Part shown: positions 10,560 through 34,652 of the stretch, piece after piece | How the letters are laid out: every line of letters begins with the position of its first letter | How positions within the stretch are numbered: position 1 is the stretch's first letter | Assembly (NCBI GenBank): GCA_014730235.1 | Contig: WJIO01000049.1 | Location: forward strand, 1 to 41,642 | Origin: Candidatus Poribacteria bacterium | Lineage (GTDB): Bacteria > Poribacteria > DTPJ01 > WJIO01 | Direction of reading: 5' to 3' | DNA length: 41,642 nt | The notes under the pieces: model-generated | Database searches by the model: none | Seen by the model: only the letters and a program-made list of their open reading frames with translations | Told to the model about the DNA's origin: nothing | Position numbers and translations under genes: made by a program

Positions 10560-10732
10560 GGTTCTTCCGGGTTCGGTGTGGTAAAGATAATAAACTTTTT
10601 CATGCTGTCATTCCTGCGAAAGCAGGAATCTAGTCTTTATGCGGATCTACTGGATTCCTGCTTCAAGCTTTTTGAAAAAACTTGAGCCAAAAGGAATAAG
10701 AGTTTCGCAGGAATGACAATCTGATAGAAAAT
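10560..10732. mobile_element. Right-truncated miniature inverted-repeat element with nested REP-like hairpin
   Basis: This occupies most of the 310-base gap 10423-10732, which otherwise holds only the leader of the upstream gene. The left end GGTTCTTCCGGGTTCGGTG matches the left end of the element at 12935. Inside is a small REP-like hairpin ATTCCTGC-GAAA-GCAGGAAT (10610-10629), a second GATTCCTGCTTCAAGC, and GCAGGAATGACAATCTGA, which aligns with the right half of the other copy. The right terminal repeat is missing: similarity stops at about 10730, directly against the TAA (10733-10735) of the small-terminase-like gene. Confidence 0.7.
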
Positions 10733-11410
10733 TTATGCTTTGTCATCTTTGATATCTGCACATTTTGCCAGAATGTTTCGATAGGGATCAGTGTTTTTTG
10801 AATTTTTGTTATCTTCACGATCTGAGATACGTTTATCAATGTCTATAAGGGCTTTTATGGCTTCTGATAATGTTTTAGGTTCTAAATTAAGATTAATCTG
10901 GGTTGAAGATCCGGAAGCTCTTTCTCCTGTTATTTTTTCAAACAACATTTTTCTTAAGGCTTTTAGTCTTAATATAGTATTATCAGTCTCTTCATCACTA
11001 TCTTCAGTAATAGGGTATTTTCTACCGTTGGAATTAGTTTCTTCGTCTAAATTTTCTTTACTGATTTCAAGAAGTTCCTGATGCCAATTTTCTGTTTTTG
11101 CATATCTTGATACAGTAGATTTGCTAAAACCAGACAATTTGGCAGTTTTAGTAATGGAACCATTGTTTTTTATGAAAATTTGATGTATTTTTTCTATTTC
11201 TTCATTGGTTAACGCCCCACTTCTTGGTCTTTTAATATTTATATTGGAATACCAGTTATTTTCTTTGGCTAACTTCATAACTGTGCTTCTTTTTTTATAG
11301 GGCATCTTACCATGTTTCATGGCTTTATCTATATCACCATTACAAGAAATGAAAATTTCCATGGCCATCTGCTGTCGCCATTGATGTTTATTCATATTTT
11401 CCTTTGTCAT
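10733..11410 (-). CDS. Phage small-terminase-like DNA-binding protein with two HTH segments
   Basis: 225 residues. Two similar helix-turn-helix units are visible: one at about 24-54 (NGDIDKAMKHG, ending KENNW) and one at about 79-110 (NNGSITKTAKLSGFSKSTVS, ending TENW). A middle charged region and a C-terminal helix LSEAIKALIDIDKRISDRE, of the kind seen at the end of many small terminases, follow. Such proteins recognise phage packaging sites and load the large subunit. It lies directly beside the large terminase but on the opposite strand, which is unusual; a transcription regulator of the module is the alternative. AAAAGGG precedes the ATG at 11410, and a second ATG 15 bases in also has a good AAAGGA site. 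The 3' end abuts a truncated mobile element. Confidence 0.6.
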   Translation of the reverse strand: MTKENMNKHQWRQQMAMEIFISCNGDIDKAMKHGKMPYKKRSTVMKLAKENNWYSNINIKRPRSGALTNEEIEKIHQIFIKNNGSITKTAKLSGFSKSTVSRYAKTENWHQELLEISKENLDEETNSNGRKYPITEDSDEETDNTILRLKALRKMLFEKITGERASGSSTQINLNLEPKTLSEAIKALIDIDKRISDREDNKNSKNTDPYRNILAKCADIKDDKA

Positions 11411-11634
11411 TTTAATTTTCCCTTTTAAGCAAAGTATAGAATCATGATTATAACTATTCCATTATATATTGCGAGTTTATATGTAAAAAATGGTATATAG
11501 ATAAAATCTATATTTGGTTGTTTTATGTCATTCTTAATTATCAAACTCGATGTATATTATGCGAGGAAAGTTGAAAAGATTTATTGAGAATCAGTCATAC
11601 TTATTTGTATTTTACAATTTTACTATAATAACTT
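11411..11634. promoter_or_regulatory. Divergent intergenic region of the phage module with near-repeats
   Basis: This 224-base AT-rich space separates the small-terminase-like gene from the large terminase. It holds two near-identical direct repeats, TATATATTGCGAG (11463-11475) and TATATTATGCGAG (11553-11565), about 90 bases apart. GAGTTT (11473-11478) and AAACTC (11543-11548) form an inverted pair. These are candidate binding sites for the module's own HTH protein or for packaging. No strong sigma-70 promoter could be picked. Confidence 0.3.
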
Positions 11635-12882
11635 ATGTCAAAAATTTCTATAAACAAAGAGAAATGGTTTAAGATTTCAGGATATAATCCACATGAGGGT
11701 CAGAGCCAACTTCATAAAAGCAATTCCAGATTTAGAGTTATAGTGGCAGGCCGACGTTGGGGTAAAACACTTTGCGCTGCTAAAGAAGCAGAAACAATGA
11801 TATTAAATCCTGGTACGCGGGGTTGGGTCGTTTCTAAAACATATGACTTAACCAAAAAAGTTATCAGAGAGATTTACAAAGATCTGGTAATTGAAAAAAG
11901 ATTGGTTCCTGTTAAGAAACAGATGGCAGGGCCTATTGTTTTAGAATTCCCCTGGGGATCATCAGTAGAAGGAAAGTCAGCAGAACATCCGGAAAGTTTA
12001 CTGGGAGAGGGTTTGGATTGGCTGATTTTTGATGAATGTGCAAAGTGTAAGTCACTAGTTTGGGAGCAGTTTTTAAGGCCAACCCTGACAGATAGAGAAG
12101 GTTGGGCTTTATTTATTACAACTCCCAATGGTTATAACTGGATATACGATCTCTGGAAACGAGGGAAAAATCCCGATTATTCGGAATGGGAGAGTTTTAA
12201 GTCTCCAAGCTGGGAGAATCCTCATCTTTCTATGAAAGATATAGAAGAGGCCAGACTTACACTAAGCGAATCAGTTTTTAAACAGGAGTATGAAGCTGAT
12301 TTTACATTATCTTCAGGACGAGTGTATAAAGAATTTGATGAAGCTATTCATGTAATAGCAGAAGAGGATTTGCAAATAGAGTCATCATGGCTTAAGTTTA
12401 GAAGTATAGATTTTGGATATGAAAATCCGTTTGTCTGTCTTTATATTGCAACCGATCCAGAAGATAGAGTGGTGATATACAATGAATATTGCCAAAGACA
12501 CAAAACAATAGGACAACATGCAAAGCATATTAATCAAGACAAGACCAAATATGAATACACTACGTGCGATCCTTCCGGAGCATCGGAAAGGGCAGGTTTA
12601 TTGGAAAATGGGATAACGACTTTATCCACACGCTCAAATCTTTTACAGGGTTTGGAATTGGTAAGACAACAGCTTATACTACGGGAAGATGGAACTCCTG
12701 GTCTTTATATAAGCAATCGCTGTGTTGAAACAATAAAGGAATTCAATCTTTACTCTTATCCTGATGATTCAAATCTTGAAGACCCAATAAAAGATTATGA
12801 TCATTGTATGGATGCTCTTAGGTATTTCATAGTAAATTGGCGAAGAGGGTATATAAAACAGAAATTGGGAGTATATGGTTGA
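11635..12882 (+). CDS. terL: Phage terminase large subunit
   Basis: 415 residues, complete. It is the packaging motor that pumps DNA into the prohead and cuts it. The ATPase domain has the Walker A-type AGRRWGKT (38-45), Walker B LIFDE (130-134) and the coupling motif ITTPNG (161-166). The RNase H-like nuclease domain begins SIDFGYENP with D259, followed by D312 in TTCDPSG and D389/D393 in DYDHCMDALRY. All catalytic acids expected for a Terminase_6-type nuclease are present, so the motor should be active. The ATG at 11635 has no recognisable ribosome binding site in the 20 bases upstream, but homology begins close to it. It opens the rightward structural operon. Confidence 0.94.
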   Translation: MSKISINKEKWFKISGYNPHEGQSQLHKSNSRFRVIVAGRRWGKTLCAAKEAETMILNPGTRGWVVSKTYDLTKKVIREIYKDLVIEKRLVPVKKQMAGPIVLEFPWGSSVEGKSAEHPESLLGEGLDWLIFDECAKCKSLVWEQFLRPTLTDREGWALFITTPNGYNWIYDLWKRGKNPDYSEWESFKSPSWENPHLSMKDIEEARLTLSESVFKQEYEADFTLSSGRVYKEFDEAIHVIAEEDLQIESSWLKFRSIDFGYENPFVCLYIATDPEDRVVIYNEYCQRHKTIGQHAKHINQDKTKYEYTTCDPSGASERAGLLENGITTLSTRSNLLQGLELVRQQLILREDGTPGLYISNRCVETIKEFNLYSYPDDSNLEDPIKDYDHCMDALRYFIVNWRRGYIKQKLGVYG

Positions 12883-12926
12883 TGTTTTATAAAAATTTTA
12901 AATATTTCAGAATTTTGTGAAATTTA

Positions 12927-13084
12927 AAAATTCCGGTTCTTCCGGGTTCAGTGTGTTAAAGATAAGAAACTTCTATATGCTGTCATTCCTGCTTCAAGCT
13001 TTTTGAAAAAGCTTGAAGCAGGAATGACAAGCTGAGAGAATTTTCAATTTATAACCACACTGAACCCGGCAGAGCCAAAATTCC
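12927..13084. mobile_element. Complete 142-bp palindromic miniature element with 8-bp target duplication
   Basis: Core 12935-13076. The left end GGTTCTTCCGGGTTC and the right end (reverse complement GGCTCTGCCGGGTTC) form 21-bp terminal inverted repeats with two mismatches. The centre is a perfect inverted repeat with 24-bp arms around one base (TGTCATTCCTGCTTC at its left edge; 12979-13027). Exact AAAATTCC copies flank it (12927-12934 and 13077-13084). No coding capacity, so it would move only with a transposase supplied in trans; ends and duplication length fit the ISL3 family. It sits between the large terminase and portal genes in the 347-base gap 12883-13229 and could also act as a strong hairpin in the transcript. 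Confidence 0.85.
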
Positions 13085-13098
13085 CTTAAGTCAATGAT

Positions 13099-13133
13099 AT
13101 TTACCTTAATTTCTCTTTGGGAAAGGGGTAAAT
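13099..13133 (+). other. Hairpin in the leader of the portal gene
   Basis: ATTTACC (13099-13105) and GGTAAAT (13127-13133) pair, with an inner TTTC/GAAA pair. It lies about 100 bases before the portal start, in the rest of the gap after the mobile element. The remaining sequence to 13229 is AT-rich and shows nothing else I can name. Confidence 0.3.
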
Positions 13134-13229
13134 GAGATTTACTTACCATTTTGATATTAGTAAATCGATAAGTATTATGCAAATTGAGTTTAGCTATAGT
13201 TTATAAATAACATAAGAACTGGGTGTTCG

Positions 13230-14612
13230 ATGTTTGATAGTAATATAGGTGGTAGTGGAATGAATATGGTAAAGGAATCATTTCTACGTTGGTTGCATTA
13301 TCAACAAAATCATGAACGACTTACTAATTACGCAATATATGATGCGTATTATAATGGAGACCATGAAGTAAATATTCCTCCAAAAGTTAAATCAGCATTA
13401 GAATCTGAGCTTGGTACAGTGAACAACTATTGTCGCCTGGTAGTTGACAGCTCAGTGGATTATATATGTGGAGATGAAATAGGAATAGAAATAAAACCAA
13501 GAAATATAGTTTTACCAGAAGAAGATCGGGAATTATCCTCTAAAGCAGAATCTTTGCTTTATCATATTTATGATGAGAATCAGCTTCTTTACGAGGAGAT
13601 GCTGAAAACAGTAACAATTATGGGAAAGAAAGGGGATGTATTCCTTAAGCTTTATATAGAAAACAATAAGATAAAAGTTCGGGTGTTAAGACCTGATATA
13701 TGTTTCCCCAAATACAGATCGGATGACTATAAGGAAATGCTTTACTGTGCTGTTAAGTGGTTTGATGAAGAAGAGAACCGCGAAAATGGTATGCCATTAA
13801 TGTCAAGTAAGAAATGGAAAGCTCAGGTTTTCAGAGCAGACACAGTAGAATATTATGAACTGGGGGAATCTTCAGAGACTGAATATAGCGAATGGAAACT
13901 GATTGATGTTCAGGATAATATCTTCGGTTTTATTCCCATAATCCATATAAAAAATACTGTTGACGATCTGGATTTTGGAGTGAGTGATCTACAGGTTATG
14001 ACAGATCTCCAAGATGCCTTAAACAAAACTATAACAGATATGCTTCTGGCTATGGATAATCAAGCTTTTCAAAGGATGTTTATATTTGGTGGTCAATCTC
14101 CAAAAGGTCAGGAAATAAGCATGGAACCTGGTATGATAACAGAAGTTCCTAATGAATCAGGCAGGCTTGAAGTTGTTCCATCAGCAGATATGGCACCATT
14201 TATTGAGGTGATGCGCGAGATAGTAGGCCAGATATGTTCTGTTACCAGCATACCAAGAGTTGCATTTTCCAAAGGTTCTGGAGTTCCAATTAGTGGATAC
14301 GCATTAAGACTTCATTATATTCCATTGGAACGCAAGTGTATGAAGAAAAAAATTATACTCAAGAATAGATTTTCAGAACTAAACAAAATGATATTTTATG
14401 CAGCTAAACTTCTTGATATGGGGGATTATACGGGTTTTAACTCAAAGATAAGATTTACAGGAGGTTTACCTGTGGATGAAGAAGCTCGTATAAAGGTACA
14501 GGAGATGGAGATAAGAAATAAACTGAAATCCCGTCGTACGGTGATGCAGGAAAGAGGGATTGAAGATATAGATGCTGAATTGGATCAGATAAGGATTGAG
14601 GAAATATATTAA
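13230..14612 (+). CDS. Phage portal protein, SPP1 gp6-like
   Basis: 460 residues, usual length for SPP1 gp6-type portals. It forms the dodecameric ring through which DNA enters the capsid and to which the neck attaches. Seen: VNNYCRLVVDSSVDYICGDEI (typical N-terminal wing motif), IMGKKGDVFLKLY, a stem helix pair around DLQVMTDLQDALNKTITDML (about 250-270), the crown side GSGVPISGYALRLHYIPLERK, and VDEEARIKVQEMEIRNKLKSRRT at the C-terminus. The ATG at 13230 has a poor ribosome binding site. An ATG at 13260, behind AGGTGGTAGTGGA, is an equally good start and would remove ten residues. It lies downstream of terL as in most tailed phages, though a mobile element separates them. Confidence 0.88.
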   Translation: MFDSNIGGSGMNMVKESFLRWLHYQQNHERLTNYAIYDAYYNGDHEVNIPPKVKSALESELGTVNNYCRLVVDSSVDYICGDEIGIEIKPRNIVLPEEDRELSSKAESLLYHIYDENQLLYEEMLKTVTIMGKKGDVFLKLYIENNKIKVRVLRPDICFPKYRSDDYKEMLYCAVKWFDEEENRENGMPLMSSKKWKAQVFRADTVEYYELGESSETEYSEWKLIDVQDNIFGFIPIIHIKNTVDDLDFGVSDLQVMTDLQDALNKTITDMLLAMDNQAFQRMFIFGGQSPKGQEISMEPGMITEVPNESGRLEVVPSADMAPFIEVMREIVGQICSVTSIPRVAFSKGSGVPISGYALRLHYIPLERKCMKKKIILKNRFSELNKMIFYAAKLLDMGDYTGFNSKIRFTGGLPVDEEARIKVQEMEIRNKLKSRRTVMQERGIEDIDAELDQIRIEEIY

Positions 14613-14652
14613 TGTAGAATTTGCAACAGAGGTTGCATCGTAGGAGGTCAAG

Positions 14653-15405
14653 ATGACCGATAGTATCAAAGAGCCAGATGCTCAGAAAAAGGAAGTAAAA
14701 ACTGTAAAAAGCCAGGATGAATTAAAGAAAAGTTTTATTGCTTCTTTTTCTAAAAATGAATCCAAATCTTCTGATGAAGAAACGGTTACAGATGAGAATA
14801 ACGAAGAGTTAGAAGAGAACAGAGTTCCGATATCTGAATTACGTAAAGTGAGGGCAGAAGCAGCAAAATATCGTAAGCTTTTGAGGAAGCTGGAAAAAGA
14901 TATTGAGGAAGAGCGTAAAACATCAGAGTTGGAAAAGGTTGAGGAGACAGACAAATTAAGAGCAATAGCCTCATATGCAGAAGCTAATGCAGAATATATG
15001 AAGAATAGGGCGGATCTAATAGCAAAACAGGCAGCAATAATTAATATTGCCAGTTCAATGAATTTTCATAATCCGAAGGATGCTGTTGCTTTGTTAGATG
15101 ATACTCAAATCGAAGTTGACGAAGACGGAAACGTTGAAGATGAAAATCTCAGGGAAATAATAAGTTCCTTTGCAGAAGAAAAACCATATCTGATTAAGGG
15201 TAACTATGATATTCATGACAAAGCTGATTACGGTCCTACCAATCCAGCACCGAAGAACTGGCCAAAACCAAAATTTCGCAGACAAGATAAAGTTACCCGA
15301 TTAAAACAGGAAGCTGTAGAAGCTATGAAAAATGGCAAAACAGCGGCTTCAATAAAGTTATATAATCAGGCTTGGGAAATGGAAAGAAAAGATAGAAAGA
15401 AATAG
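14653..15405 (+). CDS. Phage capsid scaffolding protein
   Basis: 250 residues, very rich in Lys, Glu and Asp, with no Cys or Trp until the C-terminal tail. A disordered N-terminus (1-55) is followed by a coiled-coil stretch (about 60-135), then a segment NPKDAVALLDDTQIEVDEDG and AEEKPYLIK that is characteristic of scaffold proteins placed just before the capsid gene. The C-terminus (about 215-250) is a basic helix pair ending MERKDRKK. It would guide coat assembly and leave before or during packaging. The start has a strong TAGGAGGTC site. The position between portal and capsid supports the call. No protease domain is fused to it. Confidence 0.75.
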   Translation: MTDSIKEPDAQKKEVKTVKSQDELKKSFIASFSKNESKSSDEETVTDENNEELEENRVPISELRKVRAEAAKYRKLLRKLEKDIEEERKTSELEKVEETDKLRAIASYAEANAEYMKNRADLIAKQAAIINIASSMNFHNPKDAVALLDDTQIEVDEDGNVEDENLREIISSFAEEKPYLIKGNYDIHDKADYGPTNPAPKNWPKPKFRRQDKVTRLKQEAVEAMKNGKTAASIKLYNQAWEMERKDRKK

Positions 15406-15420
15406 GAGGTTAATTAATAA

Positions 15421-16545
15421 ATGGCAATTATTACAGACCTTATGCAAACTTATGATCAAGCGGACACAAACGATTACACAATTGCAGAAGGCATACATAT
15501 GCTTAGTCCAACAGATACACCACTTCAACTTTTGCTACCTAAAATCCAGGTGGGTTCAGTAAAGGCTGAGTGGATTGAAGATGAACTTACTGGTTATAAA
15601 AGTAATCTTGCATCAACTCTAGCGAATACAACTTCAACACAGATTTTAATTAATACTGGTGATGGAGCTGATAAATTTCCAGAAGATGTTGACACTTATA
15701 ATGTAGTAATCAGAATTGATCAAGAGTATATGCTGGTTACAGGAAAATCCGGTGATGATCTTACAGTAACAAGAGGATATGGCGATACTCAGAAATCTAC
15801 ACATGCTTCCGGTTCAATTGTACATATAGTTTCTCAGATGGAAGTTGAAGGTGCTGAAGCAAAGCGCAGTATGGCAAGAGAAAGAACCAGACCAGGAAAT
15901 TATGTACAGACTTTCAGTCGTACATTAGAAGTATCAGGTGTTCAGGAAGCAGTGAAAAAGCTTGGTGGTATTACCAGCGAAATAGATTATCAGATTATGC
16001 AGGTAATGAGACAGCTTGCACTGGAATTGGAAAAGACTATAATCATGGGTGTTAAGGCCCAAGCTGGCAATTCTTCAAGCTTTAGAACTATGTCAGGACT
16101 TTGGTCGATGATAGTTACTAACAGAACTGTCGATTCTGGTTCGATTGACACTGAAGCTATAGAGACTGATATTAAAGCCATCTGGGATGCAGGTGGAGTT
16201 CCAAGAGCTATTATTACAAGCGGCAGTCTTGCTCAGGATATATCCAATATTTATTCTGATAGAATCAGGACTGATGTCCAGACAGCTATTGGTGGTGTAA
16301 ATATTAACAGCATAGTTAATCCGCTAGGTGAAGGTCCAATTGCTATTATTCCGCATAGAATGGTAGCTGACAATGAATATTATATGCTGGACACTGCAAG
16401 AATATCTCTTGGTTATTTGCGCCCATTCCATATGCGGGAGCTATCCAGTGATGGTGATGCAGATAAGCGCTGGATTGGTGGAGATTATACTGTTGAGCTT
16501 ATGAATGAAAAAGCTCATGCTTATAGATATGGTTTTGATGTTTAA
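15421..16545 (+). CDS. Major capsid protein, DUF5309/SU10 type (HK97 fold)
   Basis: 374 residues. It begins MAIITDLMQTYDQ and has TPLQLLLPKIQVGSVKAEWIEDEL and later QLALELEKTIIMG, DISNIYSDRIRTD and YMLDTARISLGYLRPF, which fit the DUF5309 coat family with an HK97-like fold. Between about residues 67 and 135 is an inserted beta-rich module (NTGDGADKFP, EYMLVTGKSGDDLTVTRGYG, HASGSIV) of a type also found in other virion proteins; it probably decorates the outer surface. AGGAGG lies 11 bases before the ATG. A perfect palindrome follows the gene. No head protease is encoded, consistent with coat proteins that assemble without a cleaved delta domain. Confidence 0.85.
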   Translation: MAIITDLMQTYDQADTNDYTIAEGIHMLSPTDTPLQLLLPKIQVGSVKAEWIEDELTGYKSNLASTLANTTSTQILINTGDGADKFPEDVDTYNVVIRIDQEYMLVTGKSGDDLTVTRGYGDTQKSTHASGSIVHIVSQMEVEGAEAKRSMARERTRPGNYVQTFSRTLEVSGVQEAVKKLGGITSEIDYQIMQVMRQLALELEKTIIMGVKAQAGNSSSFRTMSGLWSMIVTNRTVDSGSIDTEAIETDIKAIWDAGGVPRAIITSGSLAQDISNIYSDRIRTDVQTAIGGVNINSIVNPLGEGPIAIIPHRMVADNEYYMLDTARISLGYLRPFHMRELSSDGDADKRWIGGDYTVELMNEKAHAYRYGFDV

Positions 16546-16607
16546 TAGCAAATGAAAACACTGGCAAAATCCGAGTCTGAATCGCAGACATTCTATCGGT
16601 AGCCAGA

Positions 16608-16637
16608 AGGGATGGTAATTATATAATTACCATCCCT
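16608..16637 (+). terminator. Perfect 30-bp palindrome after the capsid gene
   Basis: AGGGATGGTAATTAT followed at once by its reverse complement ATAATTACCATCCCT. The RNA would form a long stem with a minimal loop 63 bases after the capsid stop. It is not followed by a U-run, so it may protect the capsid mRNA 3' end or partly attenuate readthrough rather than terminate. Confidence 0.5.
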
Positions 16638-16663
16638 ATAATCACCAGAATAGAGAGATTACG

Positions 16664-17014
16664 ATGGCAAGGTTCAGAATTGGCGGCTCAGGTCCAGATA
16701 ACAGAGGACTTGGCAAAATTGAGGGTATTGATACACGCAGATTTGATGTCGCCGGAGAAATATATGAAACAAATAAATACAATGAGATCATAATTCTTCG
16801 TAAATGTTTGTATGTCAATGAACTGACAGATGAAGATACATGCGGTGAAAAGCCTTCTGAAGAAGACTTGCAGAAAGATGTATATACTGGATATTCAAAG
16901 CAAGAATTAGAAAATATGAAGATGAAGGATATAATAAAGCTAAAAAGAGGACTTTATCGAGTGGGCATGACTAAGGCCAAATTAATTAATGCTCTGATAG
17001 AATCAGGATACTAA
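16664..17014 (+). CDS. Small phage protein with C-terminal SAP/HeH-like motif
   Basis: 116 residues, between capsid and glycosyltransferase genes. The N-terminal part (1-55: MARFRIGGSGPDN, DVAGEIYETNKYNEIIIL) has no recognisable domain. A short acidic linker is followed at about 78-116 by YSKQELENMKMKDIIKLK and KAKLINALIESGY, which resembles the helix-extended-helix/SAP-type fold used to bind DNA or the phage mRNA machinery; similar short proteins occur in the head genes of many phages. Function is not known; head completion or decoration is the guess from position. The ATG follows AGAGAGATTACG, a weak site. Confidence 0.55.
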   Translation: MARFRIGGSGPDNRGLGKIEGIDTRRFDVAGEIYETNKYNEIIILRKCLYVNELTDEDTCGEKPSEEDLQKDVYTGYSKQELENMKMKDIIKLKRGLYRVGMTKAKLINALIESGY

Positions 17015-17041
17015 TCAATCTGATTTATTTTAAGGAAATGT

Positions 17042-18043
17042 ATGGTTAATCTAATGGTATCACATGGAGGTGCGCTTGGGGATAATGGTTTTACTATTCC
17101 AACCCTGACAAATCTCCGGAAAAAATATGAAGAAATCTATTTATTTTGTAAATCATCAGGTTTTAAAGCGCTTAAAGATACTGGTTTAATAGAGCGATTT
17201 ATTATACAGAAACCAGATATGGAAAACCTGACCAATGATGAACGGCGAAAATGGCTTTTTAGTGCTACACGTGGCCTTGATTTCCATGCAAAACTAAATT
17301 TTAATGGTGTAATACCCAGTCGCTATATGTTCCATAAAGGTGATCCTAAATTTGAGTTTTCTTCTGAATGGAAAAGACAAAATGCGGAAGATGTAAGTTT
17401 TTTTGATGCTTTTGCAAAAAAGGCAGAAGCAGAAGAGGCAATAGGCAAAAGGCCCTTTTTATTTTTATCTTCTCAGGAAAAGGAATGGCTTAAAAACTTC
17501 AGGTATGAGTATGGAATACCCGACAAAGCTTTTCTTTTAGGTTGGCAATTTACCGGCAGTTCAAGAATTAAGTGGTATCCATTTTTTGATATTGTAATTC
17601 AAAGGAATATAATGAGAAAGCATCCCCAGGTTTATGTATTAGGTCTTGGGGATCTAATGAATAAAATCAAATGGAATAGACGTTTTCACGGTGGTAGATT
17701 TATAAATTTAGGCAACTCAATATCTTTTCGACAAGCCTATATTTTAACAAGCATATTAGACTGTCTTGTAGCACCAGAAACAGGAATTATGGTATTTGCT
17801 CAAGCCTGGGAACACGTTCCAAAGATTCTTCTGGCTACACATACATATGGTTATCACATAACTTTTGGCTATAGGAAGAGCAATTCAGATACTAAAATAA
17901 TTCAATCAGAGGCAAAATGTTCGCCTTGTTACAATATTTTGGCAGACTGTTACCGAGATGGAGATAAGCCCTGGTGTTTATGTATGGGCAAAATATCACC
18001 GGAAAAAGTTATTGATGCTATTGAAAAAGTGATAAAGAGGTGA
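17042..18043 (+). CDS. Glycosyltransferase family 9 (heptosyltransferase)-like protein in the phage operon
   Basis: 333 residues. GGALGDNGFTIPTLTNLRKKY at the N-terminus matches the GxxGD..l..P.l..L...y opening of GT9, and LDCLVAPETGIMVFAQA (249-265) matches the conserved sugar-nucleotide site. Bacterial GT9 enzymes transfer ADP-heptose to lipopolysaccharide core. In this protein a cysteine-rich C-terminus, CSPC (293-296) then C303, C312 and C314, may bind metal. It lies on the same strand between head genes with an AAGGA site and short spacers (27 and 6 bases), so it belongs to the phage operon. It could glycosylate virions or alter host lipopolysaccharide; which one is not shown. Confidence 0.75.
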   Translation: MVNLMVSHGGALGDNGFTIPTLTNLRKKYEEIYLFCKSSGFKALKDTGLIERFIIQKPDMENLTNDERRKWLFSATRGLDFHAKLNFNGVIPSRYMFHKGDPKFEFSSEWKRQNAEDVSFFDAFAKKAEAEEAIGKRPFLFLSSQEKEWLKNFRYEYGIPDKAFLLGWQFTGSSRIKWYPFFDIVIQRNIMRKHPQVYVLGLGDLMNKIKWNRRFHGGRFINLGNSISFRQAYILTSILDCLVAPETGIMVFAQAWEHVPKILLATHTYGYHITFGYRKSNSDTKIIQSEAKCSPCYNILADCYRDGDKPWCLCMGKISPEKVIDAIEKVIKR

Positions 18044-18049
18044 AAAGAA

Positions 18050-18448
18050 TTGGCAAAAACTTTAGTTTCTCAATCAAATTTAAAGACTATAGTAGTAAGA
18101 GAGATAAGTGCATTAACAACATCCTATGAACCATCAGAAGCAATTAACGTACAAGGAGCTAATCAGCTTCAGCTATTGGCGTCCTTCACGAAGGGTTCAT
18201 CCAATGGATGCAAGATAAAGGTTGAGTTTTCAGAAGATATGGTAAATTGGTATCAGGAGAGCTCTTATGCTTTGTCAGAGGGAGGATTATCTGCGATCCA
18301 TTACGCAATAGAGCGAGAGATAGAAAACAGTTGCGATATAGTGATACCAATACCATTATCATCATCATTCATGCGCGTGAGTGCAATGGCAATAGACATA
18401 TACACAGGAACATCATTATCCATCACAGCCACAATATCCAACATATAG
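18050..18448 (+). CDS. Small phage structural protein, beta-rich
   Basis: 132 residues from a TTG at 18050, placed 6 bases after the glycosyltransferase stop and behind AGAGGTG. The sequence alternates polar and hydrophobic residues (ANQLQLLASFTKGSS, GCKIKVEFSEDMVNWYQES, SSFMRVSAMAIDIYTGTSLS) as in a small beta-sandwich such as head-decoration or neck proteins. No family recognised. It ends 18 bases before the next gene. The DNA switches to a higher-GC texture within this gene. Confidence 0.55.
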   Translation: MAKTLVSQSNLKTIVVREISALTTSYEPSEAINVQGANQLQLLASFTKGSSNGCKIKVEFSEDMVNWYQESSYALSEGGLSAIHYAIEREIENSCDIVIPIPLSSSFMRVSAMAIDIYTGTSLSITATISNI

Positions 18449-18466
18449 CGAGGGGATAGGAGAGCA

Positions 18467-19276
18467 ATGGCGACTAGACAATCAATGGCATGGCTAATAA
18501 AGCATCTGCGAGGTAAGGTACATGATGACAATCCAATGGCATTGACTGACGGACAACACTATATGGGTGACACCATACGTCTTACATGCACATACACAGA
18601 TTTATCTGGCAATGCGGATAATCCTTATATGCCGGAGGTTACGGTATGGGATACACACGGTAGTAAGCGTATGGATTCTGCTATTCCCATATATACAGGG
18701 GAAGTGGGAGAATATCATTACAATTATCGTATTCCACCTGAAGGCCCGGAAGGAGTATGGAGAGCGGAGTTTACCGGCACAGTATCCGGCAGTATCCGGC
18801 AGTATCCCGTTGAGTTTACCGTCATTGAGAGTAATCGGGTATGGTCAGATGCAGAATTACAGAACATACTTGATATGCACCGCATCCATATAATCCGGGA
18901 GAGGTTGAATCATGGCGCAGACGGAGAGACATATTACAGCAGATATAGTATGCTGGAAGATAATGTAAAGATATGGGATGGCAGACATACCAGCTCTACG
19001 GAGATATCATCGGACAAATATACAGTGAACCTTATAGATGGAGCGTTTACGTTACCCAATACATCATGGGAAGAATACTATCTGGATGCAGTATCATACA
19101 ACATACATGGCGCAGTAGCCGAATGTATGGAACAACTGGCAATGGATCCCAACAAAGCTAAGTCATGGGATCGGGGGAGCGTTAAGTATACCCATTATGA
19201 TTACCTGGAGATGGCACGACATCATCGCGGCTTATCAGGAATAAGAAGCACAGCTATCAGAAGGACATATAGTTGA
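18467..19276 (+). CDS. Probable head-tail connector protein with Ig-like N-terminal domain
   Basis: 269 residues. About 25-120 looks like an Ig-like/macroglobulin-type beta domain (DTIRLTCTYTDLSGNA, YTGEVGEYHYNYRIPPEGPEGVWRAEFTG, QYPVEFTVIE). About 122-269 is helical and carries WEEYYLDAVSYNIHGAVAECME, MDPNKAKSWDRGSVKYTHYD and YLEMARHHRGL, a pattern I associate with gp15-type adaptor proteins that dock on the portal. Position between capsid and head-closure genes supports this. The ATG at 18467 follows AGGGGATAGGAG. A 10-bp tandem repeat lies inside the Ig-like part. Domain names are by pattern, not a database search. Confidence 0.55.
   Translation: MATRQSMAWLIKHLRGKVHDDNPMALTDGQHYMGDTIRLTCTYTDLSGNADNPYMPEVTVWDTHGSKRMDSAIPIYTGEVGEYHYNYRIPPEGPEGVWRAEFTGTVSGSIRQYPVEFTVIESNRVWSDAELQNILDMHRIHIIRERLNHGADGETYYSRYSMLEDNVKIWDGRHTSSTEISSDKYTVNLIDGAFTLPNTSWEEYYLDAVSYNIHGAVAECMEQLAMDPNKAKSWDRGSVKYTHYDYLEMARHHRGLSGIRSTAIRRTYS
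18781..18808 (+). repeat. 10-bp tandem repeat inside the connector gene
   Basis: AGTATCCGGC occurs twice in tandem and is followed by the partial copy AGTATCCC, encoding VSGSIRQYP. Because the unit is not a multiple of three, gain or loss of one copy would shift the reading frame. Confidence 0.8.
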
Positions 19277-19295
19277 ACTCAAAGGATGGATAACA

Positions 19296-19655
19296 ATGAA
19301 CATGCCAGAAGCCTTAGATATACTGCAGTTGGAATATGAGTATTGCAGTATAAGCCAGAGGATAGAGGAATCCCGGAATGCATTAGGAGAGCCAGTATAT
19401 ACTTTATCCCCCATATCTTCTACTGTAAAGTGCTCCATATCCCCGATACATCGTATGCCCTCGTATGCCCTCAGAGTTACCGGAAGGATTAAGCCGGGGA
19501 TATCGTACCAAAGATTATATATGTTGATAGTATCATCGTGTCAGCATTTAGAACCGGGAAATATCATAACTGACAGCAATGGTGTAGAGTATGAGGTTAT
19601 ATACACAGTAAATTGGCACACTCACAAGGAAGCCATAATCAGCAAAAGGAATTAG
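19296..19655 (+). CDS. Head-closure / head-tail joining protein
   Basis: 119 residues. The size, position between connector and tail-terminator genes, and content (NALGEPVYTLSPISSTVKCSI near residue 30-50; RLYMLIVSSCQHLEPGNIITD and GVEYEVIYTVNWHTHKEAI at the end) fit SPP1 gp16/HK97 gp10-type closure proteins that seal the portal after packaging. The pattern of a strand ending in an EV..V..H segment is typical. The ATG at 19296 is preceded by AAGGATGGATAACA. It ends 1 base before the next gene. Confidence 0.6.
   Translation: MNMPEALDILQLEYEYCSISQRIEESRNALGEPVYTLSPISSTVKCSISPIHRMPSYALRVTGRIKPGISYQRLYMLIVSSCQHLEPGNIITDSNGVEYEVIYTVNWHTHKEAIISKRN
19451..19472 (+). repeat. 10-bp tandem duplication in the head-closure gene
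   Basis: TCGTATGCCC is present twice followed by TC, encoding RMPSYALR. Like the repeat at 18781, the unit length is 10, so a copy change would break the frame. Confidence 0.8.
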
Positions 19656-19656
19656 C

Positions 19657-20571
19657 ATGCAGAGAATCCTTGAAGCCATCAGAAATAGATTAATATCGGA
19701 TACGGGCATAACATCCATTGTCGGTGAAAGTGACATAAGTTGCGGTTACGTCAAGGAGGAAACCCATTATCCCTGCATAACCATTGAAGCAAAGAGCATC
19801 AGTTCAGTTAAGGGTGTATCCGGTACAATGAGCGGGATAATAGGCGTTGATATATATTCCGATAACAGCAAAGAGGAATTATGGTCAATATATTCCATGT
19901 CAAAATCCCTGTTGCATAACACTGAACAGGAGTTAAGTTTACACAGTTGCTCAATACATCTGATAAGAGAGATAAAGGTAACGGATGCTCAATATGATTC
20001 ATCAGGGACGGCGTGGCAATTGACATCTATCTATGAAGTTATCTACAGCGTAACAGATATATCCCTGACAACGTCAGTAAGTGGAATAGTATATGGTGGT
20101 AGAGATTTAGTGGAAGCGGAAGCGTCAATGGAGATAGGTGAGTTTCGGGGAGCAATGAGTCTTGATGTAAGGTTTGAGGGTGAGTTTCACAGTGGTCGTG
20201 AACGATTCAGCAATTCTGTATATCATCCCAAAGGTTATGCCCGTGTATTATTCCAAGAGATGTATTTCCATGTTTCGGTATTGGAATTGTTGTGGAAGAT
20301 AGACATGGATTCAAATGGAAGTTTACGGGACGGAATAACCCCAGCCATAACTTACAATGTAAACCAGAATACTCATCCGGCTTATGTTAAGGTGTTGTTC
20401 CAGATGTTACGGACAGATAACGGCAAGCGTATGGAAGTGGAAGCACCAAGAGCAATATGCCAGCAGTTACAGATACCGTTTAATAAAGATGATTTCATCA
20501 TATATGATTGTGAATGGATATTGTTAAGCGATGTATCGGGAGAAGTTGTGAAGGTATCAGTAGAGGATTGA
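19657..20571 (+). CDS. Probable fused tail-terminator and tail-tube protein
   Basis: 304 residues. About 1-135 (LEAIRNRLISDTGITSIVG, KEETHYPCITIEAKS, GIIGVDIYSDNSKEELWSIYS, WQLTSIYEVIYSV) matches the DUF3168-like tail-completion pattern, which caps the tail beneath the neck. The remaining 160 residues (SMEIGEFRGAMSLDVRFEGEF, VLELLWKIDMDSNGS, DFIIYDCEWILLSDVSGEVV) are beta-rich and end with the kind of strand that closes tail-tube folds. If right, a terminator and a tube protein are joined in one chain, which is uncommon. Alternatively the second part is a terminator extension. It starts 1 base after the head-closure stop. Confidence 0.5.
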   Translation: MQRILEAIRNRLISDTGITSIVGESDISCGYVKEETHYPCITIEAKSISSVKGVSGTMSGIIGVDIYSDNSKEELWSIYSMSKSLLHNTEQELSLHSCSIHLIREIKVTDAQYDSSGTAWQLTSIYEVIYSVTDISLTTSVSGIVYGGRDLVEAEASMEIGEFRGAMSLDVRFEGEFHSGRERFSNSVYHPKGYARVLFQEMYFHVSVLELLWKIDMDSNGSLRDGITPAITYNVNQNTHPAYVKVLFQMLRTDNGKRMEVEAPRAICQQLQIPFNKDDFIIYDCEWILLSDVSGEVVKVSVED

Positions 20572-20645
20572 TAGAGTTTAGTTTATATATGGGCTTATAT
20601 AGAAGCTCTAGTCGAATCAGGACAGCGGAGATAGAGAGGATAGCA

Positions 20646-22229
20646 ATGATTGTATTTGCCCTTACGCCATCAGCACCAAGAGAATATCAAGTTGAGACGT
20701 TTAATTCAAGTGAGTCAATATGGATGGTAACAGATGATTTGCAGGTAGAGGCGTTTCGATATACTTCGGACCGTATACGTGATTCTGTTATGCAGTTTAC
20801 AGGTTTACCATGGACTTTTGGTGATTCAAAAACACTGGGTGATTCTCTTAATTTAGACGATTCACCTGGCGGTTGTGGTGAAGGTGTTTACAGGGATTAT
20901 GAGGTTACAGCGGGACTTAGTTACACTTTCTCATGTTTATACAAAATAGATTCTGGAAAATTGGTCATACAGATTCATGATCTAACTAATGAAGAAGCAA
21001 TAGTAACGGTAAGTAAAGATGAGATGTCCTGGTCTGCTTATGAGGTCAGCATTAAGATTACAGATGGATGCGATACAATAAGGGTTAAATTTCTACAGGA
21101 TTTTACCGATCCATCACCTGGGCCGTTTTACATTGATGATGTTAGCCTAAGGGGGAGCGTCATTATGAGCGATCCGGATAGATATTCCATATTACCTGAG
21201 AAGATAGGAAGTATCTATGAAACAATAATCGGAAGACGGGTTTATGATCTGCAATCAATACACTATTCGTTTTATCTATGTTGGGAATTTCTCAGCGAAG
21301 AACATTACAATCGTTTGAGAGAATGTTATAAAAACACTGATATACTTTATTTTGATGATGGTCGTGTTCCACCGTTGACAGAGAAAAGCCGGTGTTATGA
21401 TAATGCTCTCTTTACTTATGAAGGCATAACAAATCCTTCAAATACTAATAAGGCATACTCAGATAGTTCTAACCTTTTGCCTTATGGGCGGGATGATTTT
21501 GAGGCTGCGGAATTTTCAACTCAAGAATATGGTACAATTGACGATGATGACGGAGATTATAAAGAAACTAATAATCCACCCACAGACCATTATATTTACC
21601 ATAAATTCCTTATACAATCATCAATAAGCAGAGATAATGTTGAACGTATAAGGTTTAGAGTAGTCAACGCTAGTAGTGATATGTCAAACCATAATCTTGA
21701 TGGGTCAGTTCTGTATGCGTGGAACGGTATTAAATGGGTAGAATTATCAGGCAATACCAACAATAGTATTACTTCATTATCATTCAACACATCATCGGCA
21801 GAAATAGCAAAACAATTCGTGGCTTCCGATGACGGATATATACGTTTGCTTTTGCGTTCACGCAATTCTTATAACGGATACGATGGTCTTATAATGAGAA
21901 CATATTTTGTAGGATGTGAGATAAACCAAGGTTTGAATCTTACAGTACCCCTTTCAAATAAAGCTATATTGGATGATAATGACGATATAATCTGGGTGAA
22001 GAATTTGACACAAGGTACAACACTAAGCATTGGAACAGATTACACAATTTCATGTGATAGGTATTCTGTTGAAGTATTTGACCAAGTATCAGGTGATGAA
22101 ATAGAAGTTAAATACAATCGGTATTATGAAGTTATGTTTGCCAGTATGCCAGAAAGTTGGTTAAATGGAGTTTCTGACAATGGCAACAGGATGAGGGATA
22201 CGGAAATAATACTAAAGACCATTAAATAG
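20646..22229 (+). CDS. Distal-tail-like protein with carbohydrate-binding-type module
   Basis: I start it at the ATG at 20646, behind AGAGAGGAT; the open frame extends upstream into the previous gene but has no good start there. 527 residues. About 25-180 resembles a CBM4/9-type jelly roll (EGVYRDYEVTAGLSYTFSCLY, GKLVIQIHDL, DTIRVKFLQDF, GPFYIDDVSLRG). About 185-265 (IGRRVYDLQSIHYSFYLCWEFL, YNRLRECYKNTDILYFDDGR) resembles the core of distal-tail (Dit) proteins. The rest is beta-rich and contains a second putative receptor-facing domain. It probably forms part of the tail tip and contacts the cell envelope. Domain calls are by pattern only. Confidence 0.5.
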   Translation: MIVFALTPSAPREYQVETFNSSESIWMVTDDLQVEAFRYTSDRIRDSVMQFTGLPWTFGDSKTLGDSLNLDDSPGGCGEGVYRDYEVTAGLSYTFSCLYKIDSGKLVIQIHDLTNEEAIVTVSKDEMSWSAYEVSIKITDGCDTIRVKFLQDFTDPSPGPFYIDDVSLRGSVIMSDPDRYSILPEKIGSIYETIIGRRVYDLQSIHYSFYLCWEFLSEEHYNRLRECYKNTDILYFDDGRVPPLTEKSRCYDNALFTYEGITNPSNTNKAYSDSSNLLPYGRDDFEAAEFSTQEYGTIDDDDGDYKETNNPPTDHYIYHKFLIQSSISRDNVERIRFRVVNASSDMSNHNLDGSVLYAWNGIKWVELSGNTNNSITSLSFNTSSAEIAKQFVASDDGYIRLLLRSRNSYNGYDGLIMRTYFVGCEINQGLNLTVPLSNKAILDDNDDIIWVKNLTQGTTLSIGTDYTISCDRYSVEVFDQVSGDEIEVKYNRYYEVMFASMPESWLNGVSDNGNRMRDTEIILKTIK

Positions 22230-22287
22230 ATAATTGAAATGTAGGCTGGACTGCTTCTGGAAAACTCAGCAAAAAAAAGGTAATGAT

Positions 22288-22653
22288 ATGAGAATCACAA
22301 AAAATTTCAGAGTAGAAGAATTTGAATGTCCATGTTGTGGTGGTATTCTTGATACTTTAGCTTTTAGGAATTTCGTGGTAAAACTCCAGGATGCTAGAGA
22401 TACATCAGGTATTCCTTTTGTTATAACCAGTGGGTACCGTTGTTTCCGGCATAATAAAAGAATTGGTGGCAACTCTGACAGCAGTCATTTGAAAGGTATA
22501 GCAGCAGATATTCTTACGCGTACCTCCTCTGAAAGATACTTTATTCTTAAAAGTCTTATTAAAGCTGGATTTAACAGAATAGGTATTGGCAAAAACTATA
22601 TACATGCTGACCTTGATACAGATAAACCACAATTTCTTATATGGACTTATTAG
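22288..22653 (+). CDS. M15-family D,D-peptidase, phage lysin
   Basis: 121 residues from the ATG at 22288 (AAAAGGTAATGAT upstream; the longer frame start at 22234 has no good site). It contains SGYRC (48-52), HNKRIGG, SSHLKGIAADI with H67 and D74, and IHADL with H106; these are the three zinc ligands of the peptidase M15_3/LAS fold. It would cut peptide bonds in peptidoglycan. The N-terminus FECPCCGG has an extra CxxC pair. There is no signal peptide, so release needs a holin or delivery with the particle. Its place inside the tail genes rather than at the operon end suggests it may also be tail-associated. Confidence 0.85.
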   Translation: MRITKNFRVEEFECPCCGGILDTLAFRNFVVKLQDARDTSGIPFVITSGYRCFRHNKRIGGNSDSSHLKGIAADILTRTSSERYFILKSLIKAGFNRIGIGKNYIHADLDTDKPQFLIWTY

Positions 22654-22663
22654 GAGAAGAAAA

Positions 22664-22825
22664 TTGCTTAAATGGATTAAATGGATAGCAGAGAGAAGAT
22701 ATATTATAACATTCATTTTAGAGATTATCGAATGTCTGGAAGATGAAGAAATATCCAGGGAAGAGCTTGACAGACTACTTATGAAAGCCCGGAATTTGCT
22801 GATAGCCCTTAGAGTAGTTATATAG
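22664..22825 (+). CDS. Small helical phage protein
   Basis: 53 residues starting at TTG 22664, chosen because AGGAGA lies 6 bases upstream and directly overlaps the stop of the lysin gene. The sequence (KWIKWIAERRYIITFILEII, then ECLEDEEISREELDRLLMKA) predicts one amphipathic basic helix followed by an acidic helix. No family recognised. Being next to the lysin, a regulator or partner of lysis is possible, but this is a guess from position. Confidence 0.5.
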   Translation: MLKWIKWIAERRYIITFILEIIECLEDEEISREELDRLLMKARNLLIALRVVI

Positions 22826-22840
22826 ACTGGAAAATAAAAA

Positions 22841-24331
22841 ATGCAGTATGGTAATCTAAACAGTTTGGAGATAGCTGAGTTTAACGCATACCGGAGTTCT
22901 TCATTACGAAAGCCGACATACACATTATGGATAGCGGGATATGGAGATCTAACGGAAGAAGTGATAAGTATAGAGCAAGAGATTACATTAGCGGATACAG
23001 ATATTATTAATAGTATATATATTGGCAAGGCAGTTGTGTGCATTAGCAATAAAGGATTAATGGACAATGGTATAATCACATTGAAGCCTAATGCAGAGAT
23101 AAGGATATGGGGTGGCTTTAATGGGGTTAACGTGCCGATATATACAGGGATAATAGATTATATTAAATCATCATCAACAGACGGTATTATATTTTTGCAC
23201 AGTACAGACTACATGAGTTTATTTAAGCAAGAGACAATTGGTAGAGATATTTTTTCATACAATACTCCTGAGCTTATAGCAGAATATTTTTGTAAGTTTG
23301 TAAATATCCCTGAGCCATTAATAACAAATTCCAAAAAGACCGATACAGTATACCGGAATAAAGCATTTTTAGACCAGAGCATGTATCAATGTCTGGAATC
23401 AATATGTCAGAGCATATTCTATGTGGGATATTTCAACGAAAACGGTATACTGAATCTTACAGAGCATAACCATTATAATTATACGGACTTTGTATTCAAT
23501 GACAGTAATGTAATTGACTGTGGTAAGATAACAGATACCAATATAATCAATCATGTAGAGCTTGAGTATGCTCATGGAGCATCGTCAGATTTAACAGACC
23601 AAATCAGTGTGGACACTTACGGTACGGGAGTATTAAATCGGGATATTTCCATGATTGACTATACCATAGTATCCAATGAGGTAACAGAATCGGGTATTAG
23701 GGAATTGGAGAATGACCTGGAGGCATTTAGATTTACTTCATCCCCTAACTCATCATTTATAGATTGCATTAAAGTAAGGATTGGCACAGAAACATCACAT
23801 GGAAATATATCTGTTGGAATATATGAAGATGCGGGTGGAATTCCGGGCAACTTGATAGCAGAAAGCTTGGAAATAGACGTCCTGGAATTAAGTTCAGAAT
23901 TTGCATGGGTGGCGTTCAGATTTGTTAAGCCGGTTAAGATTCAACCTGATGTTGATTACTGGGTTGTTATAGATATAAGTTTAATCACCGCAGGCAGTGT
24001 ATATGTTCGTATAAACGATTTATCCGTAACGTCTGATTATGCTTATTATTCGGGAACATGGCAAATAATTAATGATATTAAAGCTCTTCACATAATTATC
24101 GGCAGTTATCAAGGCTACAGGATGGCAACAGACATATTGAATTTCCATTCTGATAATAAGGATTCTATATTTATAAAAACTCCATTCTTACCTCATTTAC
24201 AGTTAATGGATAAAGTATTTGTAGATATACAGGATAGAGGTATAACTGGTCAATATAAAATAACAGGTTGCAAACATGAGATAAGTTCCGGCAAATATAT
24301 AACATGGGATTTTCTCAGAAAGATAAAATAG
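22841..24331 (+). CDS. Tail-hub/baseplate-like protein with inserted beta domain
   Basis: 496 residues. The first 275 (TYTLWIAGYGDLTEEVISIEQ, AEIRIWGGFNGVNVPIYTGIID, TPELIAEYFC, LESICQSIFYVGYFNENGIL) follow the pattern of gp27/GpD-type hub proteins. About 292-418 is an inserted domain (AFRFTSSPNSSFIDCIKVRIG, ISVGIYEDAGGIPG, ADVDYWVVIDIS-like segment) resembling the choice-of-anchor type beta sandwiches of surface proteins. The hub fold resumes at about 420-496 (MDKVFVDIQDRGITGQYKITG, then SSGKYITWDFL). It probably sits at the tail tip; the insert may bind cell-surface glycan. The ATG has only a weak upstream site, GGAAAATAAAAA. Confidence 0.55.
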   Translation: MQYGNLNSLEIAEFNAYRSSSLRKPTYTLWIAGYGDLTEEVISIEQEITLADTDIINSIYIGKAVVCISNKGLMDNGIITLKPNAEIRIWGGFNGVNVPIYTGIIDYIKSSSTDGIIFLHSTDYMSLFKQETIGRDIFSYNTPELIAEYFCKFVNIPEPLITNSKKTDTVYRNKAFLDQSMYQCLESICQSIFYVGYFNENGILNLTEHNHYNYTDFVFNDSNVIDCGKITDTNIINHVELEYAHGASSDLTDQISVDTYGTGVLNRDISMIDYTIVSNEVTESGIRELENDLEAFRFTSSPNSSFIDCIKVRIGTETSHGNISVGIYEDAGGIPGNLIAESLEIDVLELSSEFAWVAFRFVKPVKIQPDVDYWVVIDISLITAGSVYVRINDLSVTSDYAYYSGTWQIINDIKALHIIIGSYQGYRMATDILNFHSDNKDSIFIKTPFLPHLQLMDKVFVDIQDRGITGQYKITGCKHEISSGKYITWDFLRKIK

Positions 24332-24348
24332 ATTATGGAGGAATAGAA

Positions 24349-25173
24349 TTGTCATTATATCCAGAGAGCCCCAATTTACCTCAGGGAACAAATTCAACAG
24401 AAGTCAACACAACTAATTGGAATAAGTTAATAGATAACATAAATGCCATAGGTTCGGATTTGGTCAATGCCCGAGGAGATGGACAGGAATTTCCGGGTAT
24501 AGATCATTCATCAGGTCAATGTGGAAATATAGACGATATACTGCAAGGCATAAAGCATATGATAAGTGATATATCGGGTGAAGATAAGTGGTATGATTCA
24601 CCAATTGCCAGTCTCAGAAGCCATGATCATTCCCATGATAAGGGTGGAAATATACCCTGGAGTAGCATTGGCAGTGGTAACAGACGAATAGTATACCATC
24701 CAGAATATCCCGGGGCATTATGGACAGCATCTCTTCATGGTGATCCAGCAAGTGGTAATAATACATTGATCCGTAGTTGCGGTCAGGAAGTGGAGTTAAA
24801 TGTAGCTCATAATTATTATGGGGTAACGACATCCGAGGACATGCTACAGGAATACTACTTATCGCTTTGTTTAACGCTACCGGAAGATTTTAGCAATTGG
24901 TCTGAGAGCGATTCAATCAAAATGGAATACAAGACATATAGCGATTCCATAAGTGATAATGGTGTGGGCGTATATGTTTATAAGTCGGGAACTGCAGAAT
25001 CGATAGTCACAAAAGAATTTTATGCAAGTAATATCTGGTCTAATATATCTTTAGATAGGACTAATTTGGGTTCCTGGTCATCAGGTGATACAGTTGAAAT
25101 ATATGTTTGGTTTACAGTTAGAGATGGGCATTTTGCACGATTAGGAAAAATAGAATTTAATTATGAATCGTAA
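24349..25173 (+). CDS. Putative tail-fibre or tail-tip protein
   Basis: I start it at TTG 24349 because GGAGG lies 7 bases upstream (24336-24340); an ATG at 24304 would overlap the hub gene and has no site. 274 residues: an N-terminal helical region with STEVNTTNWNKLIDNINAIGSDL, a His/Asp-rich middle (SLRSHDHSHDKGG), then a beta-rich C-terminal domain (about 140-274) with YYLSLCLTLPEDF, WSSGDTVEIYVWFTVRDG and a final LGKIEFNYES, as in fibre head or carbohydrate-binding modules. No family recognised. It precedes the XhlA-like gene. Confidence 0.5.
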   Translation: MSLYPESPNLPQGTNSTEVNTTNWNKLIDNINAIGSDLVNARGDGQEFPGIDHSSGQCGNIDDILQGIKHMISDISGEDKWYDSPIASLRSHDHSHDKGGNIPWSSIGSGNRRIVYHPEYPGALWTASLHGDPASGNNTLIRSCGQEVELNVAHNYYGVTTSEDMLQEYYLSLCLTLPEDFSNWSESDSIKMEYKTYSDSISDNGVGVYVYKSGTAESIVTKEFYASNIWSNISLDRTNLGSWSSGDTVEIYVWFTVRDGHFARLGKIEFNYES

Positions 25174-25225
25174 TGGTTCTGAAAATGATATATTTTAAGA
25201 AGATATGGAATAATGGAATAAGGTG

Positions 25226-25516
25226 ATGGTGGTGGCAGATCAAGACATAGTTAGATTTCTCTCGAATAGAATAGACTGTCTGGAAACACGCTTTGAAACG
25301 AGATTTGACAGGCTTGAAAGACGTTTAGACCATTGGATGGGCAAGAATGGTCAGCAAAATGTAAGTATACAAAAGAACTCGGATCAGATTGATGCAATTA
25401 ATAAAATGATAGATCATAAAAGCAAGAAATCTCTAACTATAAGCGTTGCAGTTGCTAGTTGTATAGCAACGTTATTAAGTGCATTAATTCAGTTACTTAC
25501 TAAATGTATATTTTGA
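25226..25516 (+). CDS. XhlA-like holin, coiled coil plus one membrane helix
   Basis: 96 residues. An N-terminal coiled coil (RFLSNRIDCLETRFETRFDR, about 10-38) leads through a polar linker (SDQIDAINKMIDHKSKK) to one membrane helix (about 70-93, ISVAVASCIATLLSALIQLL). That architecture matches the hemolysin XhlA family, which acts with a holin or as one to let the lysin out. Starts are ambiguous: GTG 25223, ATG 25226, or GTG 25229/25232, all close behind AAGG. It is the last gene of the rightward operon. Confidence 0.65.
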   Translation: MVVADQDIVRFLSNRIDCLETRFETRFDRLERRLDHWMGKNGQQNVSIQKNSDQIDAINKMIDHKSKKSLTISVAVASCIATLLSALIQLLTKCIF

Positions 25517-25537
25517 TTTATTGGGGATTATAATTTT

Positions 25538-25610
25538 GTTGGCGAATTCATTTCCAAAAAATTATACATGGAATCGCCAACATATAATTTTTATTTTGAT
25601 TTTTTAATTA
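25538..25610 (+). terminator. Intrinsic terminator closing the phage operon
   Basis: GTTGGCG (25538-25544) pairs with CGCCAAC (25575-25581) and ATTC (25546-25549) with GAAT (25571-25574), around one bulged A. A T-rich run (ATTTTTATTTTGATTTTTT) follows on the plus strand. The opposite gene's stop lies in the T-run, so the hairpin may also slow transcription from that side. Confidence 0.65.
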
Positions 25611-28270: not shown

Positions 28271-28292
28271 ATAGATCTCCATTTTATATATT

Positions 28293-30199: not shown

Positions 30200-30235
30200 A
30201 ACCGAAGAACCTCTATGGATGAATTAAGTTTTGCT

Positions 30236-31324: not shown

Positions 31325-31326
31325 CA

Positions 31327-32355: not shown

Positions 32356-32356
32356 T

Positions 32357-33286: not shown

Positions 33287-33312
33287 GTTTTTTCCTTAAA
33301 TTAATTGAATTA

Positions 33313-34539: not shown

Positions 34540-34652
34540 TAGACAACCTCTTATAGTTTTTATCCTATTATGGCTAAGTATTCAGTGTGACATATTTTTG
34601 GAGGGGAAATATCTATTAGCGGGAGTGAACTAAATAATTTCAAACATAAAAT

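Follow-up and report, generated by a model that had tools for sequence, protein, structure and literature searches.

A phage module of about 15 kb, carrying packaging, head, neck, tail and lysis genes, lies in a Poribacteria chromosome, at positions 10733–25516 of the window. The question raised by this locus is whether the module is a particle system kept by the host or the remainder of a prophage. The window, 41,642 nucleotides in length, is one entire contig (C413) of a 5.53-Mb MAG that comprises 451 contigs and is 91.6% complete. An earlier sequence-only reading favored a gene transfer agent (GTA) or other domesticated particle and named prophage decay as an alternative. After comparison with its nearest viral relative, that alternative becomes the best reading. 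The module is, with a probability of roughly 0.6, a prophage that has been reduced and is probably defective; its temperate siphophage lineage lies close to IMG/VR 3300035698_013211.

Gene content and borders of the module

The module consists of a minus-strand TerS gene followed by a rightward operon that extends from TerL to a holin-like gene. The following features were identified in the module and at its borders.

9268–10422, minus strand: URO-D gene, host gene of the left flank (family match)
10733–11410, minus strand: TerS-like small terminase with an N-terminal HTH, divergent from terL
11635–12882, plus strand: TerL (phrog_2, 7e-52)
12927–13084, unstranded: host MITE (12935–13076) with its duplications, in the terL-portal spacer
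13230–14612, plus strand: portal, SPP1 gp6-like (SPP1_portal, 1.4e-32)
14653–15405, plus strand: capsid scaffolding protein (Phage_scaffold PF06810, 4.4e-14)
15421–16545, plus strand: major capsid protein (MCP), SU10_MCP family (PF17236, 1e-60)
16664–17014, plus strand: small protein, SAP-like by eye
17042–18043, plus strand: candidate heptosyltransferase (GT9)-like protein, by eye only
18050–18448, plus strand: open reading frame, module protein without a family
18467–19276, plus strand: neck/head-completion protein (homologue in the nearest phage relative, 39.5% identity, 9e-34)
19296–19655, plus strand: head-closure protein (Z about 15 to the homologue in the same relative)
19657–20571, plus strand: tail terminator (N half, gp17-like) fused to tail tube (C half) (PF11367, 4.6e-5)
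20646–22229, plus strand: minor tail protein (homologue in the same relative, 30.6% identity, 7e-54)
22234–22653, plus strand: M15 peptidase endolysin (phrog_894, 1.2e-28)
22586–22825, plus strand: small gene after the lysin
22841–24331, plus strand: baseplate hub/tail-fibre-like protein with a choice-of-anchor R-like insertion (weak matches, 3.6e-5 and 1.5e-3)
24304–25173, plus strand: tail-fibre-like protein, by position and an HDHSHDKGG motif, with no library match
25223–25516, plus strand: holin-like candidate with a coiled coil and a C-terminal membrane segment (phrog_2990, unknown function)
25591–27183, minus strand: apiosidase gene, host gene of the right flank (Apiosidase family match)

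All 15 or more module ORFs are open: across roughly 12.9 kb of coding DNA there is no stop, frameshift or pseudogene. The host genes abut the module at 74 bp on the right and about 310 bp on the left. An intact head-tail-lysis module between host genes, as first described, is thus borne out by the open frames and the family matches. The description of a nearly uninterrupted rightward set holds from 11635 onward, where the run begins because TerS lies on the minus strand; a host MITE also interrupts the terL-portal spacer.

TerS aligns with the TerS of a same-order contig, L085, at a Z of about 21–24, and has weak matches to the small terminase subunit families phrog_1206 and phrog_4044. Its orientation is inverted relative to that homologue (L085:912–1385), which is co-directional with terL. 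In TerL, the Walker A motif GRRWGK, the Walker B motif LIFDE and the nuclease aspartates D259, D312 and D393 are conserved, without variation among four homologues in either the ATPase motifs or the aspartates. The claim of good ribosome sites throughout is only partly correct. The TerL start has no visible Shine-Dalgarno sequence, with TATAAT just upstream, and the listed TTG start of the lysin also lacks one, but an in-frame ATG at about 22288 has it. The ORF of the minor tail gene is listed from 20514, but the ribosome site belongs to the ATG at 20646.

No integrase, repressor, replication or tape-measure family was matched among the module proteins scanned, in agreement with the sequence-only reading. 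Att repeats, which that reading had listed as evidence against itself, were not seen either (no direct repeat of at least 12 bp). Searches for tRNA genes and Rfam families returned none. For an empty site recognized by flank synteny, there was no informative relative among the genomes compared, and the neighborhood of the apiosidase flank is not conserved in six other Poribacteria. Adjoining the module is a surface-polysaccharide-type operon (27212–36830) with epimerase, dehydratase and glycosyltransferase-like genes, and the host protein encoded at 37666–39756 contains a GPPGEPGD stretch resembling collagen.

Comparison with the nearest phage relative

A TerL search retrieved three viral contigs at 64–65% identity (G097, G098/L006 and L005). 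G097 is the 33.7-kb IMG/VR UViG 3300035698_013211, represented by the pieces L007, L102, L151 and L152. It shares with the module the order TerL, portal, scaffold, SU10-type MCP, neck, (glycosyltransferase), head closure, terminator, tube and minor tail. The main genes share 40–65% identity with those of G097; TerL shares 65%, the MCP 62%, the portal 56% (best segment 53%) and the scaffold 33%. The small protein at 16664–17014 has a G097 protein at the same map position, with which it is not alignable (Z 0.3, not significant). The glycosyltransferase identity of 17042–18043 found no support in Pfam, PHROGs, PDB sequences or phage records. Within its own head-tail region (L102:13402–16180), G097 encodes a glycosyltransferase-like protein of 744 aa as well as a methyltransferase-like one, much as the module carries the GT9-like candidate.

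The left arm of G097, which contains XRE-repressor-like and replication-type genes (by eye), an ERF recombinase and a DNA methylase, is absent from the module, and ERF was not found in the host MAG. The MuF gene of G097 (L007:14461–15468, phrog_1657) has no counterpart. The TerS gene of G097 is co-directional, whereas that of the module is divergent. The absence of a capsid protease from the module, noted earlier, is correct; it is uninformative, since G097, with the gene order portal-MuF-scaffold-capsid, likewise has no recognisable separate protease.

The tail region is more complete than the sequence-only reading stated, although its statement that a tape measure is missing stands. The ORF at 19657–20571 is a single 304-aa frame whose halves match two adjacent genes that are separate in G097, the N half with a Z of about 16–18 and the C half with a Z of about 10. 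A single-sequence AlphaFold model of the fusion had a pLDDT of 35 and is unusable. In G097 the tube gene is followed by an HK97-gp10-like gene (phrog_5, 1.5e-12), genes for proteins of 129 and 86 aa, a tape measure of 1334 aa (PF10145, 7e-28) and a gene for an 868-aa protein. The module protein at 20646–22229 is a homologue of this 868-aa protein minus its N-terminal region, and a spacer of about 75 bp with a ribosome site separates its gene from the end of the fusion at 20571. Since the fusion directly precedes the 868-aa homologue, the gp10-like gene, the two small genes and the tape measure are gone as a block, and cleanly. Neither PF10145 nor phrog_28 nor the G097 tape measure as query matched anything in the host MAG, a genome of which 8% may be unseen. 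Scans of viral contigs found no relative when the fusion protein, 20646–22229, the hub or the capsid was the single query.

The module therefore combines homology to the structural module of a temperate phage, one with XRE-repressor-like and replication genes, with loss of the left arm, MuF and the tape-measure block, and it lies between host genes on a contig carrying a host MITE family. On this basis, a resident prophage would have shed the arm for integration, control and replication as well as the MuF gene. It would also have lost the block of gp10-like, chaperone-position and tape-measure genes, with terminator and tube becoming one frame, and would have remained in the chromosome long enough for a host MITE to insert. 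We infer that the module can neither excise nor replicate alone. If it is transcribed, portal, scaffold and capsid would assemble heads that TerS and TerL could fill. Lacking a tape measure, the products would be at most heads with a stub tail, and lysis of the cell by way of the lysin and holin-like genes would still be possible. Three observations count against a reduced prophage: the ORFs are open, the tape-measure block was taken out along gene boundaries, and att repeats of at least 12 bp are missing.

Residence in the host and distribution in the phylum

The MITE at 12935–13076 is a 142-bp palindromic element with a perfect 8-bp target duplication, AAAATTCC, at both sides. It belongs to a family of about 40 copies in the MAG with GGTTCTTCCGGG/CCCGGAAGAACC ends. 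Of the 35 copies scored, 27 have a target duplication that is 6 bp or longer, in most cases exactly 8 bp. The left edge of the module, next to TerS, holds another copy (10560–10730), which has decayed and is itself interrupted by a different palindromic repeat, ATTCCTGC. The insertion between terL and portal indicates that the module was already resident in the host when the MITE jumped. Codon usage and GC content of most module genes are also host-like, with 32–44% GC in the module versus 48–51% in the G097 homologues (G097 overall, about 50%). The neck-to-tube block (18050–20571) has higher GC and GC3 and a poorer host codon fit than the remaining module.

The inserted copy carries one private substitution in 163 bases, a point estimate of age that may include divergence from before insertion. 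Taken as the age of residence, this estimate would predict about four nonsense changes if the 12.9 kb of coding sequence evolved neutrally, with a probability of 0.017 for none. As the interval on a single mutation is wide, ORF integrity after the MITE insertion can at most hint at constraint or at a recent arrival. The 12.9 kb free of stops and frameshifts despite the insertion is weak evidence against simple decay. The catalytic residues, which the sequence-only reading took as an argument against decay, leave the matter unsettled, because decay by large deletion also spares ORFs. Fourfold sites differ by 59–91% from G097 and G001, the only same-order genome, and dN/dS is not readable because these sites are saturated against every homologue.

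The other relatives share fewer genes with the module. G098 (IMG/VR UViG 3300009504_000328), a prophage contig, has in common with it TerL (64%), the lysin (49.6%) and the small gene after the lysin, found at the same place (3e-4), whereas its portal, capsid and tail are different and an integrase lies left of its lysin-TerS-TerL genes. In the viral contig L005, TerL and the lysin are common to the module and the head and tail differ. Within the phylum, the one strong TerL relative is in G001 (Candidatus Poribacteria SpSt-970), on contig DTPJ01000671 (G001:C533, L085). There, as in the module, TerS (31%) and TerL (61%, 8e-206) are adjacent, and they lie just downstream of a host-like LamG gene. 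Unlike the module, L085 is a 3.35-kb fragment with a sigma-70-region-2-like gene upstream. Such a small gene precedes TerS in L085:517–873 and in G097 (L007:7995–8264) and is absent from the window; it is a possible late-gene regulator.

Portal and capsid were searched for in G001 and neither was found. The capsid has a match in 1 of 83 other same-phylum genomes (27% identity), the portal has none in 28, and the flanks are not syntenic in the six Poribacteria compared. Inheritance of the whole module at the same locus, proposed earlier as support for domestication, did not emerge. Instead, presence among relatives is patchy, which the sequence-only reading had itself set against a GTA. Vertical inheritance is thus unsupported by these searches, a shallow test with only one same-order genome, and the patchy presence suggests a reduced prophage.

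Competing readings and biological meaning

The strongest competitor, though an improbable one, is a domesticated particle under selection. In this case, GTA-like heads would be filled with host DNA by TerS and TerL and released by the lysin, with the fused terminator-tube ring set as the tail. The hub and fibre would dock directly on this ring set, making a tape measure unneeded. Each remaining ORF is intact despite the MITE insertion, the losses lie at gene boundaries, the terminator-tube fusion is in frame and the TerL catalytic residues are conserved, all of which this reading would explain. The position of TerS-TerL beside a host-like gene in the same-order MAG too is in its favor. However, portal and capsid are missing from that genome, the flanks are not syntenic and no host regulator is linked to the module. 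In addition, several tape-measure deletion mutants of phage TP901-1 form no tails (PMC5099701). A specific form, in which the fusion is a fixed one-step stub tail on a tape-measure-free particle that the host keeps for DNA transfer or killing, is rather less probable still.

The GTA label originally preferred fails on two features. Vertical inheritance in the host clade, which was only shallowly testable, is unsupported, and so is the GTA reading. A complete infectious-particle set is also lacking, as no tape measure was found in the module, or in the MAG with two families; this argues against a working long-tailed GTA. The Rhodobacter capsulatus GTA (RcGTA) resembles the module in gene content, being a compact chromosomal head-tail cluster without lysogeny genes. 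Unlike the module, RcGTA has host regulators and a tape measure (PMC7947584).

It is unlikely that the block is a recent phage-fragment insertion or an assembly join, with the tape-measure block or left arm missing only from the MAG contig. The fragmented, incomplete MAG would allow this, and the lower host codon fit of the neck-to-tube block could mark a seam. However, the MITE copies on the contig have about 40 matching copies elsewhere in the MAG, which marks the contig as host DNA, and the coding context is continuous on either side of 20571–20646. More doubtful again is a satellite that packages into heads of its own but depends on a helper phage for tail length, replication and integration. 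The presence of packaging and capsid genes in the module, without replication or integration genes, would suit such an element. Known capsid-forming satellites show the reverse pattern, keeping integration and replication control and dropping tail genes. The module departs from this capsid-forming phage satellite (cfPICI) pattern in having no integrase or primase and in retaining lysis, hub, fibre and other distal tail genes. No such helper was seen in the MAG, which has a single matching TerL and no tape measure from either family tried. Finally, a complete compact temperate phage with unrecognised integration and control genes, to which the five to six un-annotated ORFs might lend room, is very improbable, since these ORFs all lie within the structural operon and about 15 kb hemmed in by host genes leaves no space for a replication/integration arm.

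A reduced prophage is therefore the parsimonious reading, and particle production by the module is a candidate property only. Reduced prophages are common, and the likely reading is in this sense an ordinary one. Removal of the tape-measure block together with the in-frame terminator-tube fusion predicts that the module, if expressed, would yield heads with a stub tail or with none. Should stub-tailed particles exist, they would make tail length in the absence of a tape measure directly testable.
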